Source: Crocinitomicaceae bacterium | GTDB taxonomy: Bacteria; Bacteroidota; Bacteroidia; Flavobacteriales_D; Crocinitomicaceae | Length of the DNA stretch: 64,000 nucleotides | Assembly: GCA_023262855.1 (NCBI GenBank) | Contig: JALQYQ010000009.1 | Coordinates: 1-64,000 of the forward strand | Direction: 5' to 3' | Shown here: in pieces, positions 29,087 to 36,551 of the stretch | How the letters are laid out: the number at the start of each line of letters is the position of its first letter | Position numbering within the stretch: the stretch's first letter is position 1 | Translations under genes and position numbers: made by a program | The notes under the pieces: generated by a model | Databases searched by the model: none | What the model saw: the letters and a program-made list of their open reading frames with translations, nothing else | What the model was told of the DNA's origin: nothing

Positions 29087-29264
29087 CTGATTGTTTATTT
29101 GTTTTTTGATTTGTTTTTTGACTTATTTCGTCGTCGAAGAGAATTCTTACTGAAGGCGTGTAATCATCATCGAATTGCCCTGATTTTGTTGCCCAAAAGA
29201 ACGACGCTAAAAAGAACAGCGCGACGATTAAACTTACGATTAGCATTATGTATATCATTCCCAT
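29067..29264 (-). CDS. ccoS: cbb3 oxidase maturation protein CcoS
   Basis: This 65-residue, single-helix protein (N-terminal YIMLIVSLIVALFFLASFFW) contains the family segment WATKSGQFDD. CcoS is needed to insert haem b and CuB into the catalytic subunit. It overlaps ccoNO by 20 bp, so the two are coupled. It is the first gene of the oxidase operon and follows a TGAT-N4-ATCA palindrome. Confidence 0.92.
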   Translation of the reverse strand: MGMIYIMLIVSLIVALFFLASFFWATKSGQFDDDYTPSVRILFDDEISQKTNQKTNKQSDGSTEV

Positions 29265-29286
29265 AGTACAAATGTCATGAGATTGT

Positions 29287-29333
29287 CAAAAGAAAAGAAT
29301 GATAGGTGTTAGTCTAAAAACTGATTTCTATCA
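29287..29333 (-). promoter_or_regulatory. predicted ccoS promoter with Fnr box
   Basis: TGATTTCTATCA (29322-29333) is an exact TGAT-N4-ATCA Fnr-type palindrome. On the minus strand, TTCTTTTG (29294-29287) matches the -7 consensus TAnnTTTG at all but one position. The box centre lies 40.5 bp from the end of that element, close to the class II activator position. Confidence 0.6.
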
Positions 29334-29378: not shown

Positions 29379-31733
29379 CTATTTTTTTAAATAAACTAAA
29401 AAAGTACTAATTAAAACAACTGTAATCGAGCTGATTGGCATTAAAATAGCGGCTATCAGCGGAGTTAAGTTTCCTGAAATTGCAAAGCTTAAACCGACAA
29501 TATTGTATGAAACAGAAAAGGCTAAACAGACTTTTAATACTGTTTTTGAGAAATTAGAAATACTCAATAAACGATCCAATTGTGCCAATTTTGAAGCCTC
29601 AATAATTGCATCTGAAGAAGGTGTAAATCGAAATACATCTTCTGAAACAGCAATACCAACATCTGCTTTTCCTAATGCACCAGAATCATTTAATCCATCT
29701 CCAACCATCAAGACACTTTTTCCTTGTTTATTTAACGATTCAATGTAATCGAGTTTGTCTTTTGGTGTTTGTTGAAAAAGCAAAACACTATCCTTTGGAA
29801 ATAATTTTTGCATGAGCGCTTTATCTTTGTCTTTGTCACCCGATAACACATGTAAACGATAGGATTTTAATGAATGAAGTAAATCTTCTATTCCAATTCT
29901 TAACTCTGAACTAAAGATAAAACGACCTGTTTTCCCATTACTCAAACGCACAAACGAAGATGTTTCGTTTTCATCAACTACACTTAAATCAGTAAAAAAT
30001 GGATTTCCAATCTTAACATTTAAACCGTGAATTGAACCTGAAATTCCCTTTCCTGAAACCTCATCAAAATCTGCTATTTCGTCTGTGCTGGCAATGTTTT
30101 GGGCTTTCAAACAAGCAACAATTGCCCTAGAAAGTGGGTGCGTTGACGAATTTGCCAAACAATAAATTGCTTCCTTATCTTCCACTGATAATTCGTCCCC
30201 TACAAAATCTACTTTGTGCGTTGTACCAGTCGTTAAAGTTCCAGTTTTATCAAATACAATATCTGTGATTTCATTCATGCGTTCAATAACTCCGGTATTC
30301 TTCAAATACAACCCTTTTCTACCCAGTAAACGCATCACATTTCCAAACGTGAATGGAGCCGAAAGTGCCAAGGCACATGGACAGGCAACAATCAAAATAG
30401 AAACTACAATTTGCGTGATTCGCGTTGCATCGACAAAAGCCCATGCAATGGAAGAAACACCTGCAATAATCAAAATAATAATTAAGAAATAGAAGGACAA
30501 ACGGTCTTGATACAAGAAACTTGTGCGTGTTTTTTTATCTGTTTGTACGTCGTTCCATAATTGCGTCAAATGACTTCTATTACTTTCCTTTTCAACTTGA
30601 AGCGTAATTCGTTGGCCTAATAACTTTCCTCCGGCATATATAAAATCTCCTTTCTTTTTATTGATCGGAACGGCTTCACCGGTAACAAAACTATAATCAA
30701 TTTTTGCTGAGTCGGACAATAAAATACTGTCACAAGGAATCACTTCTTCGTTACGGATCAACACCGTATCTTGTACATTTAACTGCTCAATTTCAACAAT
30801 TTCCTCTTTTCCATCAATTAATCGCGTAACGGCAACTGGAAAGTAGGATGTGTAATCACGCTCAAAGGAAAGGGTTTTATAAGTTTTATTTTGGAACCAT
30901 TTCCCTATCAACAAGAAGAAAATAAATCCTGCAAAAGAATCCATGTATCCTGGACCGTAACCAGCCATAATGCTGTAAGAACTTTGTGCGTAAAGAGCGA
31001 TAATACCAATTGTAATCGGCACATCTAAATTCAAACTTTTGTAGCGCAAAGCTTTGTACGCAGAAATAAAATACTCGGATGCAGAAAATAACAATACTGG
31101 AATAGAAACTGCGAAAGACAAGTAAGAGGTAAAATTTCTAAACTCTGGATTATCGCCTTCAATGCCCAGGTATTCAGGAAAACTCCAAAGCATAATGCTT
31201 CCAAATGCAAAACCAGCGACACCGAGTTTGTATAAAAATTTCTTATCTAGTTTTTTCTCTGTTTGATTTCTGTTTCCAAAATTAGGTGCATATCCAATTC
31301 GATCCAACAACAAGGCTAATTGCGCCAAACTCAAAACTGATTGGTCAAATACAATTGACGCTTCTCGTTTTGCAAAATTAACTTGGCAATTCAAAATGGC
31401 AGGTTCAATCTTGGCGATGTTTTCAAGTAAATAGATACATGAAGAACAGTGGATTTGTGGTAAAAAAAGTGTTACTCGAGCAGTCGTTTCATCCTCAAAA
31501 TCAATGAATTTTGTTTTAATCGATTCAACTTCTAAAAAAGCATATTTGTGTTGGTTACTTTCTGAGGGCTTTGCACCAGCATTTGATTCCAAGGTGTAAA
31601 AATTGCCTAAATTATTATCTTTCAATAATTGATAAACAGTTTTACATCCGTTGCAACAGAAAGGTTTTTCGTCAAAAAAATAACCTTTTCCGATTACCTC
31701 ATCTCCGCAGTGGTAACAAATTTTGTCCGTCAT
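29379..31733 (-). CDS. ccoI: copper-transporting P-type ATPase for cbb3 oxidase assembly (CcoI/FixI)
   Basis: This copper exporter supplies the cbb3 oxidase. I start at the ATG at 31733 (784 residues), because it gives an ATGA overlap with the hemN stop and a clean N-terminus MTDKICYHC. In order: an N-terminal cysteine-rich zinc-finger-like motif (CYHC, CCNGC), a metal-binding HMA domain (CSSC), membrane helices, the CPC ion motif near residue 452 (VACPCALALS), DKTGT near 494, an HP motif (SSTHPLSRA) and GDGLND. All catalytic motifs are intact. Confidence 0.94.
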   Translation of the reverse strand: MTDKICYHCGDEVIGKGYFFDEKPFCCNGCKTVYQLLKDNNLGNFYTLESNAGAKPSESNQHKYAFLEVESIKTKFIDFEDETTARVTLFLPQIHCSSCIYLLENIAKIEPAILNCQVNFAKREASIVFDQSVLSLAQLALLLDRIGYAPNFGNRNQTEKKLDKKFLYKLGVAGFAFGSIMLWSFPEYLGIEGDNPEFRNFTSYLSFAVSIPVLLFSASEYFISAYKALRYKSLNLDVPITIGIIALYAQSSYSIMAGYGPGYMDSFAGFIFFLLIGKWFQNKTYKTLSFERDYTSYFPVAVTRLIDGKEEIVEIEQLNVQDTVLIRNEEVIPCDSILLSDSAKIDYSFVTGEAVPINKKKGDFIYAGGKLLGQRITLQVEKESNRSHLTQLWNDVQTDKKTRTSFLYQDRLSFYFLIIILIIAGVSSIAWAFVDATRITQIVVSILIVACPCALALSAPFTFGNVMRLLGRKGLYLKNTGVIERMNEITDIVFDKTGTLTTGTTHKVDFVGDELSVEDKEAIYCLANSSTHPLSRAIVACLKAQNIASTDEIADFDEVSGKGISGSIHGLNVKIGNPFFTDLSVVDENETSSFVRLSNGKTGRFIFSSELRIGIEDLLHSLKSYRLHVLSGDKDKDKALMQKLFPKDSVLLFQQTPKDKLDYIESLNKQGKSVLMVGDGLNDSGALGKADVGIAVSEDVFRFTPSSDAIIEASKLAQLDRLLSISNFSKTVLKVCLAFSVSYNIVGLSFAISGNLTPLIAAILMPISSITVVLISTFLVYLKK

Positions 31734-33094
31734 ATTGTTTGAGAGAACATGCGTTCTAATTTTATATTTGGTTCCAAGTCTTGATCGAAAATCATGCAGC
31801 AATTTCGCACAAATGGTATTCCTTCTGTCGTGACTAGAACCTTATCTCCATCAAGTTGTACCAAGCCATCTGAAATCATTCCTTTAAGACGTTTTTTAAT
31901 CAATTGATGTACTTCTTTGAATACTGAATCTGCTTTAAAAGTCGTTTCAAAATGACACATTAAATCCAAAATATACGTGCGGATTTCAACATCCAACTCA
32001 CTCAACAAATGTCCACGAAAAACTGGTAATTGACCATTTTCAATTTGTTCCAAATAACCTTCAACTGATTTATCGTTTTGAGCAAATCCGAACCAACTAT
32101 CTGAAATAGCTGACATTCCAAGTCCAATCATTAAATTGGTATCTTGAGTAGTGTAGCCCATGAAGTTACGGTGTAAATTTTTAGAATTAAAGGCGATTGC
32201 TAAATCGTCGTGTGCGAGTGCAAAGTGGTCCATTCCAATTTCCATGTATCCTTCAGCCTCCAACATTTCTTTGGCTTTTTCATACAAGGCACGTTTCACT
32301 TCACTTTTTGGTAAATCTGACTCATCGAATCCGCGTTGACCATTTCCTTTGATCCACGGAACATGTGCATAACTGTACAAAGAAATACGATCTGGACGCA
32401 ATTCCAAGGTTTTTGTAACGGTATCGATAATATCTTCTAAGGTTTGTTTTGGTAGACCAAAAACCAAATCGTGACTAATCGATTTATACCCCATTTCACG
32501 TGCCGAAGTGTGAACAGCTTTCACTTGATCAAATGATTGGATGCGGTGAATTGCCTTTTGAACCACAGGACTGTAATCTTGAATTCCAAGGCTCAATCTT
32601 CTAAATCCGAAGTTATACAACTCTGTCAAGTGTTCATTGGTTGTATTGTTAGGATGAGCTTCAATACTCAACTCTACAAATTCTGGATCTACTTTTTCAG
32701 CCTTGAACAAGCCTTTCAATAAACGGATTAATTCACTTGGCGCAAAAAAAGTTGGGGTTCCTCCGCCGAAATGTAATTCTCGGATGTTTGGTTGAATGTT
32801 CAACTTCTCTTGATACATTTCCCATTCCTTCAAGACAGCATTGATGTAGGGAGATTCAACATCGTGATTTTTCGTAATTCTTTTGTGACAACCGCAGAAG
32901 GTGCACAAGCTTTCACAAAACGGCAGATGCACGTAAACACTGCAATCCTCTGAATTAAAAACAGTTAAATTGCGTTGAATCGTTGCTAGCCAATCAGCAC
33001 TTGAAAGTGGATCATTTTTCCAAAACGGAACGGTTGGATAAGAAGTATAACGCGGTCCCGGAACATTGTATTTGTCAATTATTTGCTTATCCAT
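31730..33094 (-). CDS. hemN: oxygen-independent coproporphyrinogen III oxidase
   Basis: This radical-SAM enzyme makes protoporphyrinogen IX without oxygen, needed for haem under low oxygen. Started at the ATG at 33094 it is 454 residues, close to the usual length, and begins MDKQIIDKYNVPGPRYTSYP. The radical-SAM cysteines are in CESLCTFCGCH. The region LHFGGGTPTF and the C-terminal HemN domain are present. The frame extends 21 codons further upstream but this crosses the predicted promoter. It is coupled to ccoI by a 4-bp overlap. Confidence 0.95.
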   Translation of the reverse strand: MDKQIIDKYNVPGPRYTSYPTVPFWKNDPLSSADWLATIQRNLTVFNSEDCSVYVHLPFCESLCTFCGCHKRITKNHDVESPYINAVLKEWEMYQEKLNIQPNIRELHFGGGTPTFFAPSELIRLLKGLFKAEKVDPEFVELSIEAHPNNTTNEHLTELYNFGFRRLSLGIQDYSPVVQKAIHRIQSFDQVKAVHTSAREMGYKSISHDLVFGLPKQTLEDIIDTVTKTLELRPDRISLYSYAHVPWIKGNGQRGFDESDLPKSEVKRALYEKAKEMLEAEGYMEIGMDHFALAHDDLAIAFNSKNLHRNFMGYTTQDTNLMIGLGMSAISDSWFGFAQNDKSVEGYLEQIENGQLPVFRGHLLSELDVEIRTYILDLMCHFETTFKADSVFKEVHQLIKKRLKGMISDGLVQLDGDKVLVTTEGIPFVRNCCMIFDQDLEPNIKLERMFSQTI

Positions 33095-33112: not shown

Positions 33113-33190
33113 CAAAGGTACGCACCACTCATTTTTAAAAAAAATGATATTTATCATCTTTGAAATAATAATAGGAATATTTTATCTTTA
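33113..33190. promoter_or_regulatory. divergent hemN/fnr promoters sharing one Fnr box
   Basis: The palindrome ATGATATTTATCAT arms (33144-33157; core TGAT-N4-ATCA) lie between two -7 elements: TACCTTTG on the minus strand (33120-33113) for hemN, exact, and TATCTTTA on the plus strand (33183-33190), one mismatch, with TTTG at 33159-33162 as -33. The box centre is 37.5 bp from one -7 end and 39.5 bp from the other, so one Fnr dimer could control both genes. Confidence 0.7.
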
Positions 33191-33210
33191 CGGTGAGAAA
33201 ACCGAATAGA

Positions 33211-33900
33211 ATGTTGGATAAATCGCACAAACATGTGTCATGTGAAACCTGTGGAGCACGAAAAAGCTCACTTTTTGGTAGTTTTTGCGACCATGAAATT
33301 TCGCACGTTGACGAACAAAAATCATGTGCTTATTATAAAAAAGGTCAACCAATATTTATTGAAGGCAGCTTTCCACGTGGTGTTTTTTGCTTGAATCAAG
33401 GAAAAGTCAAAATTTTTACGCGAGGAGACGAAGGAAAGGAACAAATCATTCACATTGCAAAAGAGGGAGAAATCATAGGTTTCAGAGCTATGTTTAGTGG
33501 CGAACCCTATAAAGTTGCTGCTTCAACACTTGAAGAATGCAACATTTGTTTTATCGGCAAAGAGGATTTCTTGAATATGATTGATACCAATCCAACGTTG
33601 CGAAACGGTATCATGAAAGAATTGTCTAAGGAATTAGGTGATCGTGCGATTTTCATTACCAATATGGCACAAAAATCAGTTCGTGAACGTTTGGCGTTTG
33701 CCTTGTTAATTCTTGGAGATATTTATGGTGATGAACAAATCAATTTGACGCGAGAGGACATGGCGAACTTTGTAGGTACAGCCACTGAAACATTGATTCG
33801 TTTGTTAAAAGATTTCAAGGATGAGGGCATGATTGAAATTCACACCCGCAAACTTGAAATTATTGATGCTGATAAATTAATGCAATTGGCGGGAAGATAA
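33211..33900 (+). CDS. fnr: Crp/Fnr-family regulator, Fnr type
   Basis: This is a probable oxygen-sensing activator. From the ATG at 33211 it is 229 residues: an N-terminal cysteine group C11, C14, C26 and C39, a cyclic-nucleotide-binding-like domain (about 30-140), and a C-terminal winged helix with LTREDMANFVGTATETLIRL (about 178-197). A GTG at 33193 is also in frame, but the predicted transcription start near 33194 excludes it. The cysteines could bind a [4Fe-4S] cluster as in Fnr. The position beside hemN and the cbb3 genes supports an oxygen role. Confidence 0.85.
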   Translation: MLDKSHKHVSCETCGARKSSLFGSFCDHEISHVDEQKSCAYYKKGQPIFIEGSFPRGVFCLNQGKVKIFTRGDEGKEQIIHIAKEGEIIGFRAMFSGEPYKVAASTLEECNICFIGKEDFLNMIDTNPTLRNGIMKELSKELGDRAIFITNMAQKSVRERLAFALLILGDIYGDEQINLTREDMANFVGTATETLIRLLKDFKDEGMIEIHTRKLEIIDADKLMQLAGR

Positions 33901-33902
33901 TC

Positions 33903-34652
33903 CTACCATTTTGCATCGGGATATTTACTCGGCAAAAACTGCATTTCGGTTAAAATAAACCCTAAATTTTCAGAGTGTTTACCTTGTTTACCTCCATTTA
34001 ATTGGAATTGGTTTTCTGGAATTGACAAATGGGCCATGTAAAGAATTTCTCTTACTTTTTGGAACCATTGGTCTTTAACAACTTGTAAGTCTACCCCTAC
34101 TCCAGCTATGATCATTGCTGATTCTGCTTCACTTGGAACAAAGAATTCTTGAGAATATCTCCACAAGGTATCCAAAGCAAATTGTGTTTTACCATTTGCT
34201 AATTCCGTTCCTGCTCCCAAACGAATCATCCATTCAGAACTGCGGCGCAAATGATAGGTAACTTGTTTGATTGCTTTAAATCCAATCGATTTCAAGAATT
34301 CATCCTTGCTCTTTATCATTTCTGAATAGAAATAAAAGTTAAAAGCATCTGTTAGGAACTGACGAACCATGATGAATGCAAAGTCGCGATTTGGTTGTTC
34401 CACTAGAAGACAATTGTAGAATTCATGTTCACCTCGGCGGTACGGAAAATCGTCACCGATTCTACCTTTTCCTTCGATACGTGCGCACTCGTTGTAAATT
34501 GATTCTGCGATTCCAATTAAATCTAAAGCCACATTTGTATTCGCCAAATCCTCTTCCAAAAAAGGTCCATGGCTTGAATATTCACTCAAACGATGACTAA
34601 GAATCAGTGCATTGTCTGCAATTTGCAGGTAATAGTTAATTTTCGTTTCCAT
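33903..34652 (-). CDS. paaC: 1,2-phenylacetyl-CoA epoxidase subunit PaaC
   Basis: This is the structural partner of the diiron subunit PaaA in ring epoxidation of phenylacetyl-CoA. The 249-residue, all-helical product has the ferritin-like features LGIAESIYNECARIEGK-type and the KEVTYHLRRSSEWMIRLGAGT-like segment near residues 130-150. Length and position after paaB fit. Its stop lies 2 bp from the stop of the convergent fnr gene, with no terminator between. paaD and paaE would normally follow but cannot, since the next gene is fnr. Confidence 0.92.
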   Translation of the reverse strand: METKINYYLQIADNALILSHRLSEYSSHGPFLEEDLANTNVALDLIGIAESIYNECARIEGKGRIGDDFPYRRGEHEFYNCLLVEQPNRDFAFIMVRQFLTDAFNFYFYSEMIKSKDEFLKSIGFKAIKQVTYHLRRSSEWMIRLGAGTELANGKTQFALDTLWRYSQEFFVPSEAESAMIIAGVGVDLQVVKDQWFQKVREILYMAHLSIPENQFQLNGGKQGKHSENLGFILTEMQFLPSKYPDAKW

Positions 34653-34660
34653 CGTTGAAA

Positions 34661-34954
34661 TTACATTTGTTTAACACCTTCTGGTAAATCGTAAAAAGTT
34701 GGATGACGGTAAATTTTCTCATCAATTGGCTCAAAGAAATATTCTGCTTCGTTGATTGTTACTGCAACGATTTCTTTACCTGGAACAACCCATAATCCAG
34801 TTCCTTCACCTCGACGCGTATAAATATCGCGTGCATTTTCAACTGCTAAATCTTTATCAAAAGCATGCACACTTCCTACGTGCTTATATGCTTGACCTGG
34901 TTTTGATTGGATGAATACCTCCCATAATTGTCCTTGTGATTCTGCTGCTTCCAT
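34661..34954 (-). CDS. paaB: 1,2-phenylacetyl-CoA epoxidase subunit PaaB
   Basis: This small subunit bridges PaaAC heterodimers in the epoxidase. The 97-residue product has the family features LWEVFIQSKPGQAYKHVGSVHA, YTRRGEGTGLWVV and ...DPIDEKIYRHPTFY-like sequence. The length is normal. It lies 8 bp before paaC and 11 bp after the Gre-like gene, so all are in one operon. Confidence 0.94.
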   Translation of the reverse strand: MEAAESQGQLWEVFIQSKPGQAYKHVGSVHAFDKDLAVENARDIYTRRGEGTGLWVVPGKEIVAVTINEAEYFFEPIDEKIYRHPTFYDLPEGVKQM

Positions 34955-34965
34955 TTTCTAATTTT

Positions 34966-35409
34966 TTAATTAATTTCTAAAATCTTGTAATCATTGCCAG
35001 CATGAGAAAAAGAATCCCCATTTCCTTTTCCTTTCATAGTTGGAAAAATTGGCGAATCAACTGAAATACCGACGATGTGTTTCCCTTCAAAATCGAAAGG
35101 CATGGTTGCATGTCCTACGAAAAAATGAAATTTCTCTGTAGCGACAAATGCGCCCGCTTCCACTAATGATTTTTGATCAACATTCAAGTTTTTAAGTTGA
35201 TTTAATTCGACTTCTGCACGAAAAAGTTTTTTCTCGAACAATTGCTTCATTTCACCTGATTCCGTTTGATGGGATAAATCTTCAGGATCAATCGTATCTG
35301 TTTCATCGATATCGACCATTCCATTCGACGAAGCAATTTTTTCACGTAAGTCATGAATTATTTCTTCTTGACTTTTTATTAAATGCTGATGCAAAAGTTG
35401 TTTATTCAT
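34966..35409 (-). CDS. GreA/GreB-like protein inside the paa operon
   Basis: The 147-residue product resembles transcription cleavage factors: an N-terminal coiled coil (about 1-70) and a C-terminal FKBP-like domain (about 78-147) with VEAGAFV, HIVGISVDSPIFPTMKGKGNGDSF and a final YKILEI strand. In GreA the coiled-coil tip motif is DLKEN with two acidic residues; here the aligned stretch is D44-LSHQ, so only one acid is kept. It may bind RNA polymerase without the usual cleavage activity. Its place between paaA (4 bp) and paaB is odd. A second such protein is at 43765. Confidence 0.72.
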   Translation of the reverse strand: MNKQLLHQHLIKSQEEIIHDLREKIASSNGMVDIDETDTIDPEDLSHQTESGEMKQLFEKKLFRAEVELNQLKNLNVDQKSLVEAGAFVATEKFHFFVGHATMPFDFEGKHIVGISVDSPIFPTMKGKGNGDSFSHAGNDYKILEIN

Positions 35410-35413
35410 GTTT

Positions 35414-36349
35414 TTATTTTTGATTTAATCCAGCCACATAAGCTGTTTCTCTCACCCAAGCTCCATTGTCATGAGCGCGTTTATGATGTTCTAAGCGTTG
35501 TTGGTTGCAAGGTCCATTTCCTTTTACCACTTCCCAAAATTCATCCCAATTGATATCTCCGTGTTTATAAGTGCCATCTTCCAATAATTGAAGATTTGCA
35601 TCAGGAACTTTCAATCCAATTAATTCAGCTTGAGGAATTGTTTTATTAATGAATTTCTCACGCAATTGATCGTTTGATTCACGTTTGATTTTCCATTTCA
35701 TTGCATTGGAAGTATTAGCAGACTCATTGTCATGAGGTCCAAACATCATCAACGCAGGCCACCACCAGCGGTTCAATGCATCTTGCGCCATTTGTTGCTG
35801 ATCTTTTGTACCTTCCATCATTTTCCACATGATTTCATAACCTTGTCGCTGATGGAACGATTCTTCTTTACAAATTTTCACCATTGCTCTTGAATACGGA
35901 CCATAAGAAGTACGTTGCAAAGAAACTTGGTTTGTAATTGCAGCACCATCAACTAACCAACCTATTGCACCAATATCAGCCCAATTCAGTGCTGGATAAT
36001 TAAACACTGATGAGTATTTTGCTTTCCCTTCGTGTAACCATTGAATATATTGTTCACGACTTACGCCAAGCGTTTCTGCTGCACTGTATAAATACAAGCC
36101 ATGTCCACCTTCATCTTGAATTTTAGCTAATAGAATTTTTTTACTTCTTAAAGATGGGGCACGCGTAATCCAGTTTCCTTCTGGCTGCATACCAATAACC
36201 TCTGAATGTGCGTGTTGCGAAATTTGACGAATCAAGTGTTGACGGTATTCATCCGGCATCCAATCTCTTGGTTCGATTTTCATTTCAGCAGCTATTTTCG
36301 ACTCAAACTCAGCAAGAAGCTGTTCTTTTGAAGGGGCGATAGTACTCAT
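35414..36349 (-). CDS. paaA: 1,2-phenylacetyl-CoA epoxidase catalytic subunit PaaA
   Basis: This is the diiron subunit that epoxidises the aromatic ring of phenylacetyl-CoA. The 311-residue product has the two metal-binding ExxH motifs, E80-GG-H83 and E163-SF-H166, in ferritin-like helices, and is typical in length. It opens the operon paaA, Gre-like gene, paaB, paaC. Upstream is a near-palindromic Fnr/Crp-like box, which suggests control by one of the two Crp/Fnr regulators nearby. Confidence 0.95.
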
Positions 36350-36418: not shown

Positions 36419-36484
36419 CAAAGGAAACGCAAACGAAGAGCTTGATAAATGATAAAATTCAAATGAAAACATGATAAATGTCAT
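36419..36484 (-). promoter_or_regulatory. predicted paaA promoter with Crp/Fnr-like box
   Basis: On the minus strand, TTCCTTTG (36426-36419) is a one-mismatch -7 element about 70 bp before paaA. TGATAAATGTCA (36472-36483) is TGAT-N4-GTCA, a Fnr box with one half-site change (ATCA to GTCA). Its centre is 58.5 bp from the -7 end, about two helical turns further out than the hemN and ccoS boxes. Confidence 0.4.
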
Positions 36485-36551
36485 AAAAATCGAGTTGCTT
36501 GACATTCAAATTTGTACACAAAAAAAACAGGAATGCTGAATGCAACTTAGG

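Follow-up and report, generated by a model that had tools for sequence, protein, structure and literature searches.

A conserved Fnr-type box between divergent hemN and fnr genes in Crocinitomicaceae is probably a class II operator of hemN

In the window, the 64,000-nucleotide stretch of Crocinitomicaceae DNA analysed here, a 12-bp Fnr-type box lies between the divergent genes hemN and fnr, and it is probably the hemN operator for Fnr at the class II position, kept by selection on hemN, with fnr sharing it incidentally. We infer that the neighbouring Fnr-type regulator binds the box, with low oxygen as the signal, and would activate hemN from about -41.5 (-42.5 in this genome), where the box would overlap the -33 region of a sigma-ABfr promoter with the -7 element TACCTTTG; selection on hemN would hold the box in place. 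The divergent fnr promoter on the other side of the box would lie 2-3 bp off the class II position and the upkeep of the box would be independent of fnr, so that any effect on that gene would be incidental, weak and of either sign. The region comprises the following features:

31730-33094, minus strand: hemN, oxygen-independent coproporphyrinogen III oxidase (TIGR00538, 404 bits against a cut-off of 325)
33113-33120, minus strand: hemN -7 element TACCTTTG (plus-strand letters CAAAGGTA), exact TAnnTTTG of the sigma-ABfr type
33137-33144, plus strand: A-tract abutting the box on the hemN side; when loci lacking a strict box are also aligned, each of positions -6 to -1 is A in 36-41 of 42 rows
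33145-33156, no strand assigned: Fnr-type box TGATATTTATCA, centre 33150.5, family consensus AAAAAnTGAY-N4-RTCAnnTTT
33159-33161, plus strand: TTT flanking the box towards fnr, from the sequence and the alignment of relatives
33183-33190, plus strand: fnr -7-like element TATCTTTA, one mismatch to TAnnTTTG
33211-33900, plus strand: fnr-like regulator with a cNMP-binding fold and a Crp HTH (PF00027, PF13545; 5cvr, E 9.3e-20)

The hemN start that fits relatives is the ATG at 33094 on the minus strand, and a longer open frame listed from 33157 is not preferred; the best start of fnr is the ATG at 33211, with a GTG at 33193 also in frame. On the same strand and 3' of hemN are genes for a heavy-metal P-type ATPase of the FixI/CcoI kind, ccoS (FixS) and a fused ccoNO, and further genes that resemble cbb3 genes as judged by eye. 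The minus strand at 33903-36349 carries genes resembling a phenylacetate ring-oxygenase cluster. The closest named relatives are mostly Flavobacteriales MAGs, several of them labelled Crocinitomicaceae or Fluviicola.

The arms of the box, TGATA and TATCA, are perfect, and its central TT is not self-complementary, making it an inverted repeat round a 2-bp centre; the perfect palindrome described in the initial annotation holds for the arms and not for the centre. Measured from the outer end of each -7 to the box centre, TACCTTTG stands at 37.5 bp and TATCTTTA at 39.5 bp, and both of these previously annotated distances, like the exact hemN match and the single fnr mismatch, were confirmed on the sequence. 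Another reading of the TTTG at 33159-33162 is as a possible -33 element of fnr, spaced 20 bp from the fnr -7. A pattern with an additional outer base, TTGAT-N4-ATCAA, gave 41 palindromic sites in the genome of the window (control 2) and was dropped, the family box being without the outer T.

As a bare pattern, TGAT-N4-ATCA is weak, with 6 occurrences in the window compared with 3.23 expected from shuffles, a count that would agree with a chance resemblance. When the 116-bp intergenic region was dinucleotide-shuffled 20,000 times, the box was present in 102 shuffles, the box plus an fnr-side -7 (at most one mismatch, 34.5-41.5 bp) in 12, and the box plus an exact hemN-side -7 (34.5-41.5 bp) in none. 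Conservation in relatives is stronger support for the box than these statistics; chance is contradicted by that conservation, by the shuffles and by the genome-wide spacing described below, and we regard it as exceedingly improbable.

Our set of relatives comprised 56 fnr genes, namely that of the window and 55 of the 69 loci found, with L054 and L061 left out for a missing fnr start and L062-L073 because they are partial or about 30 percent identical. A divergent hemN adjoins fnr in 41 of the 56, and 36 of these 41, window included, have a strict TGAY-N4-RTCA box; the five without it (L025, L034, L036, L037 and L043) all fall in one clade, and L034 among them has a one-mismatch box. Measured from its centre, the box is 36.5 bp away from the end of the TAnnTTTG of hemN in 34 of the 36 strict-box loci and 37.5 bp away in the other two, the window and L027. 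The element is exact in 31 of the 36, with no second exact one between 20.5 and 59.5 bp from the box, and in the five with one mismatch the sole such element between 30.5 and 45.5 bp sits at 36.5. Start-site mapping in Flavobacterium psychrophilum places the TAnnTTTG -7 element at -12 to -5 (PMC9723704), and with this placement the spacing puts the hemN box at -41.5 in the family and at -42.5 here. The class II activator position (about -41.5) is therefore occupied on the hemN side, with transcription starts predicted from the Flavobacterium mapping.

The fnr side behaved differently. In this set of 36 the spacing of the fnr -7 (TAnnTTTR) is 39.5 bp in 13, 38.5 in 10, 37.5 in 4 and 40.5 in 2, with single cases at 33.5 and 34.5 and three at 115-123 (L030, L033 and L059, where hemN stays at 36.5); a clear fnr -7 was not found in 2/36, and none of the 36 has it at 36.5. 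Second fnr-side elements occur at 31.5 or 28.5 in L005-L007 and L038 and at 57.5 in L027, and L007 has a second box match. On a quick fnr tree, in which 24 of 53 inner branches are weak, hemN spacing changed 2 times and fnr spacing 13 times over 35 loci, a count that omits L020, L021 and L023 (hemN absent, or fnr -7 not clear), omits L025, L036, L037 and L043 (strict box absent) and keeps L034. The class II position is thus not occupied on the fnr side, the 37.5-bp spacing being reached in 4/36 loci and the window standing at 39.5, and with the F. psychrophilum placement (PMC9723704) the box would be at about -44.5 for the fnr of the window. In the genus-level histogram described below, spacings of 38.5, 39.5 and 40.5 hold 4, 4 and 5 sites against a background of 3.1 per spacing, although this histogram counts only elements ending in G and the fnr element in the genus mostly ends in TTTA. 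The earlier claim that both distances are close to -41.5 therefore survives for hemN alone.

These data bear on a reading in which one bound Fnr dimer activates both genes from near -41.5 on each side, giving positive autoregulation. The box does lie between both promoters, the fnr -7 is at 37.5-40.5 in 29/36 loci, and a start 2-4 nt after the -7 would put both promoters near class II; moreover, the Fnr site table of Sphingopyxis granuli contains small displacements and one site at -43.5, that of regB (PMC7713065). Against it, the fnr-side spacing drifts and its commonest values are at background genome-wide. The standard geometry is also available to genes of this kind, as some other Crp/Fnr-type genes in the order and class have a 36.5 box (L106 and, by coordinates, G826, G827 and G829). 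With the loss of the box where hemN is absent or elsewhere, detailed below, these points led us to reject positive autoregulation as the main reading of the shared box, and we consider it unlikely. The clustering on the fnr side (23/36 at 38.5 or 39.5, and 4/36 at 37.5, the hemN value of the window) nevertheless leaves room for some role in fnr expression.

The hemN spacing proved to be general. In 11 genomes of the genus, 137 sites combine a box with an exact -7 element 13-33 bp away, compared with 30 for a reversed-pattern control; 63 of the 137 are at 36.5, 12 at 37.5 and 6 at 35.5, with every other spacing holding 0-8 (mean 3.1). Twelve genomes representing 12 other families of the class gave 141 sites (control 38), 54 of them at 36.5, and the number per genome at this spacing ranges between 1 (G825, G832 and G835) and 9 (G829 and G837); this count excludes the genome of the window, G833 and G834 are not displayed, and two places in G825 and G827 were counted twice through overlapping matches. 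Both histograms count orthologous promoters more than once, and their lengths were transcribed by hand from site listings. In this and other families, hemN is among the genes that follow 36.5 sites, as are homogentisate dioxygenase-like genes, an HlyD-like adaptor, a pyridoxal decarboxylase, a ferredoxin oxidoreductase, DUF983 and universal stress proteins, identified by Pfam for one example each and, for the stress proteins, by eye, as was a uspA-like gene in L137. Such a spike is what a position-specific activator would leave behind. The initial annotation had the box serving hemN and fnr alike; this is strongly supported by the sequence for hemN, whose 36.5/37.5 spacing is fixed in the loci examined and coincides with the genome-wide mode, and is not supported as class II activation for fnr, with 0/36 at 36.5. 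A link across the class between the number of 36.5 sites and the presence of an N-terminal-type Fnr was looked for and is not clear.

Two further groups of sites were observed. In L074, L170, L174, L175 and L185, the start of a homogentisate dioxygenase-like gene, for an oxygen-using enzyme, follows a -7 by 100-124 nt, and this -7 has its box at the activating spacing; Pfam HgmA_N was found for L074 only. In family f17 of the same class (L116-L118 and L126-L128), a conserved, probably secreted protein starts 25-30 nt behind the -7, with the box at 36.5.

A bidirectional pattern was present in 100/399 genomes of the order and 39/395 of the phylum; by our reading, the reversed-pattern control matched 9 and 6 genomes respectively. 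The 60 loci returned comprise 13 fnr-hemN pairs (window included), 2 with hemN but not fnr, and 45 with neither the pair nor hemN. A phylum-wide spread of the fnr-box-hemN arrangement was not borne out, as all 13 pairs among these 60 loci fall within the family of the window.

Natural losses of hemN allowed the two genes to be compared apart. Full hemN was not found in 12 genomes with fnr, which are MAGs of unstated completeness, and in 3 genomes hemN is present but away from fnr. In 14 of the 15 loci without an adjacent hemN the box before fnr is missing; L047 has an unusually placed pattern match and was scored both ways, the count being 13 of 15 when that match is accepted as a box. L018 offers only 121 bases upstream, and L011 pattern matches over 300 bases upstream were counted as no box. 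L020 keeps the box before fnr with no hemN there. By contrast, all 3 of the hemN copies not beside fnr keep a 36.5 box, which is strict in L148 and has one mismatch in the other two, L146 and L147; the -7 of all three also has one mismatch. The operator was not retained at both genes when they parted (hemN 3/3; fnr 1/15, or 2/15 with L047). In L008 a 26-residue hemN remnant (2721-2798) stands beside fnr with a box in which one half is ruined and an intact fnr -7, in what appears to be an intermediate of hemN loss. In another family (L114), hemN has its box at 36.5 in a region shared with a universal stress protein-like gene rather than fnr. Because hemN spacing is fixed and fnr spacing drifts, and because fnr alone mostly loses the box and a lone hemN keeps it, we assign the box mainly to hemN.

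HemF was found in 10/11 hemN-less genomes tested and in 7/7 others, and its presence in the former makes hemN loss plausible biology and not only missing sequence. Restricting the analysis to well-supported branches left 6 independent comparisons, of which 5 agree and 1 shows no difference (sign test, 0.0625). The hemN-less genomes also have fewer boxes overall, with 25 sites in 11 genomes (control 6) versus 141 in 21 (control 8), and for this reason the box at fnr could have been lost as the regulon shrank overall.

The regulator has the cNMP-binding fold and Crp-type HTH (PF00027, 75 bits; PF13545, 60 bits) but falls short of the curated Fnr model, NF008365, its best NCBIfam match at 93.5 bits against a cut-off of 228. 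Its best solved match is the Crp/Fnr chain 2gau, followed by the FNR-type chains 9qly, 8qto and 5cvr. C11 and C14 (56/56) and C113 (55/55) align with the CxxC and the central Cys of 9qly and 8qto, the aligned Cys being ligands in FNR; the third N-terminal Cys of those chains faces a Ser here, and C39 (53/56) or C60 (56/56) could take its place. In the recognition helix of FNR, a Glu, a Ser and an Arg make the contacts with DNA. The E..SR of that helix is not conserved as such, since E193 and R197 are present in 53/53 but an Ile stands in 53/53 where FNR has Ser, a change that fits a box without the outer T of TTGAT.

Whether a different Crp/Fnr protein reads the box was also considered. In other families, sites at 36.5 do occur in genomes whose best match to this Fnr starts only after its N-terminal part, such as G837 with 9 sites. 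When the genome of the window was queried with this Fnr, however, nothing was returned beyond fnr itself, crp2 (21 percent) and a fragment at the end of a contig, and crp2, aligned by eye, has Val in place of the DNA-reading Glu of Fnr, making another reader very unlikely. The fragment (G000:C39:7-177) is Fnr-like, matching at 40 percent over 57 residues with one stop.

A further alternative gives the box opposite signs, with Fnr activating hemN and repressing fnr by covering its -33 region in a negative feedback. The fnr of E. coli represses itself. Consistent with such an arrangement, the box would lie at about -44.5 for fnr, its flank runs into the possible -33 TTTG at 33159-33162, and the fnr spacings cluster, mostly not at the activating value; the box is, however, mostly not kept at fnr once hemN has gone. 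We hold this alternative to be possible but doubtful, and the box possibly represses fnr. Under the preferred reading, in which the box is kept for hemN, its effect on fnr from about -44.5 is probably incidental.

The cbb3 oxidase locus cco is a classic Fnr target. Two other places in the window carry boxes of the same type:

29322-29333, minus strand: strict Fnr-type box TGATAGAAATCA before ccoS, at 58.5 bp from the -7 of that gene
29300-29311, minus strand: half-degenerate second box TAACACCTATCA in the 36.5-bp slot of the ccoS promoter
29269-29276, minus strand: ccoS -7-like element GACATTTG, one mismatch
36472-36483, plus strand: box TGATAAATGTCA upstream of a DUF983 gene and crp2, a strict box in 13/18 loci
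36507-36514, plus strand: -7-like element CAAATTTG, one mismatch, 36.5 bp from TGATAAATGTCA

The S. granuli study likewise lists cco as an Fnr target (PMC7713065). In all 25 cco loci with enough sequence upstream of ccoN there is a strict box, and in 24 its distance to the -7 (the far -7 being picked by fewest mismatches beyond 50 bp) is 58.5 or 59.5 bp; 19/25 have a proximal RTCA half-site at the 36.5 slot, and in L043 and L050 the strict box itself has a -7 at 36.5 bp. The ccoS promoter of the window is thus a tandem (29269-29333), with boxes at about -63.5 and -41.5. If its -7 stands at -12 to -5, ccoS transcription would start on the ATG itself, at 29264, in a conserved start region, and a leaderless ccoS mRNA is possible. 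Upstream of DUF983/crp2, the box is accompanied by a -7 (at most one mismatch) at 36.5 in 11/18 loci, window included.

That Fnr controls hemN and the cbb3 oxidase is familiar from Proteobacteria; how it does so on the unusual promoters of Bacteroidota has been little described. The targets of proteobacterial FNR/FnrN/FnrL regulons include hemN, cco and fnrN itself (PMC4999443, PMC4634722). Those systems share with ours a Crp-fold regulator with N-terminal and central Cys and a TGA-N6-TCA dyad; they differ in a consensus of the TTGA-N6-TCAA type (PMC4999443), where we find an outer base A and a core TGAY-N4-RTCA, and in that fnrN is among its own targets, whereas use of the site by fnr itself is not conserved here. 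The class II Fnr sites given for S. granuli, at -41.5 for ccoN, -42.5 for hemN2 and -41.5 for uspA (PMC7713065), likewise lie at or next to -41.5, with overlapping targets (hemN; uspA-like in L137; cco, here tandem), but on -10/-35 promoters, whereas here the promoters have the sigma-ABfr TAnnTTTG and starts are predicted. HcpR is a Crp/Fnr-family protein of the same phylum but a different regulator with a different site, reported as GTAAC-N4-GTTAC in most HcpR2 genomes, with Porphyromonas gingivalis differing, and with hcp as target (PMC1274295). In F. psychrophilum, cbb3 oxidase and haem synthesis rise at low oxygen, and the main text of that study does not mention fnr, crp or hemN (PMC9723704). 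Among the matches listed, we found no account of Fnr site geometry in Bacteroidota in the open-access full-text literature.

The natural losses of hemN are valuable here as they separate the two halves of a shared promoter. A more far-reaching reading, which we put forward only tentatively, is that of a two-faced switch, in which Fnr would activate hemN from -42.5 and repress fnr from about -44.5, 2-3 bp out of phase, the 36.5-bp rule from box to TAnnTTTG being the general geometry of Crp/Fnr proteins on sigma-ABfr promoters throughout the class. If that is true, the sensor would limit itself while making haem for the adjoining cbb3 oxidase. A fixed 36.5-bp rule, equivalent to -41.5, would allow target genes of Fnr-type regulators to be predicted from sequence across the class.
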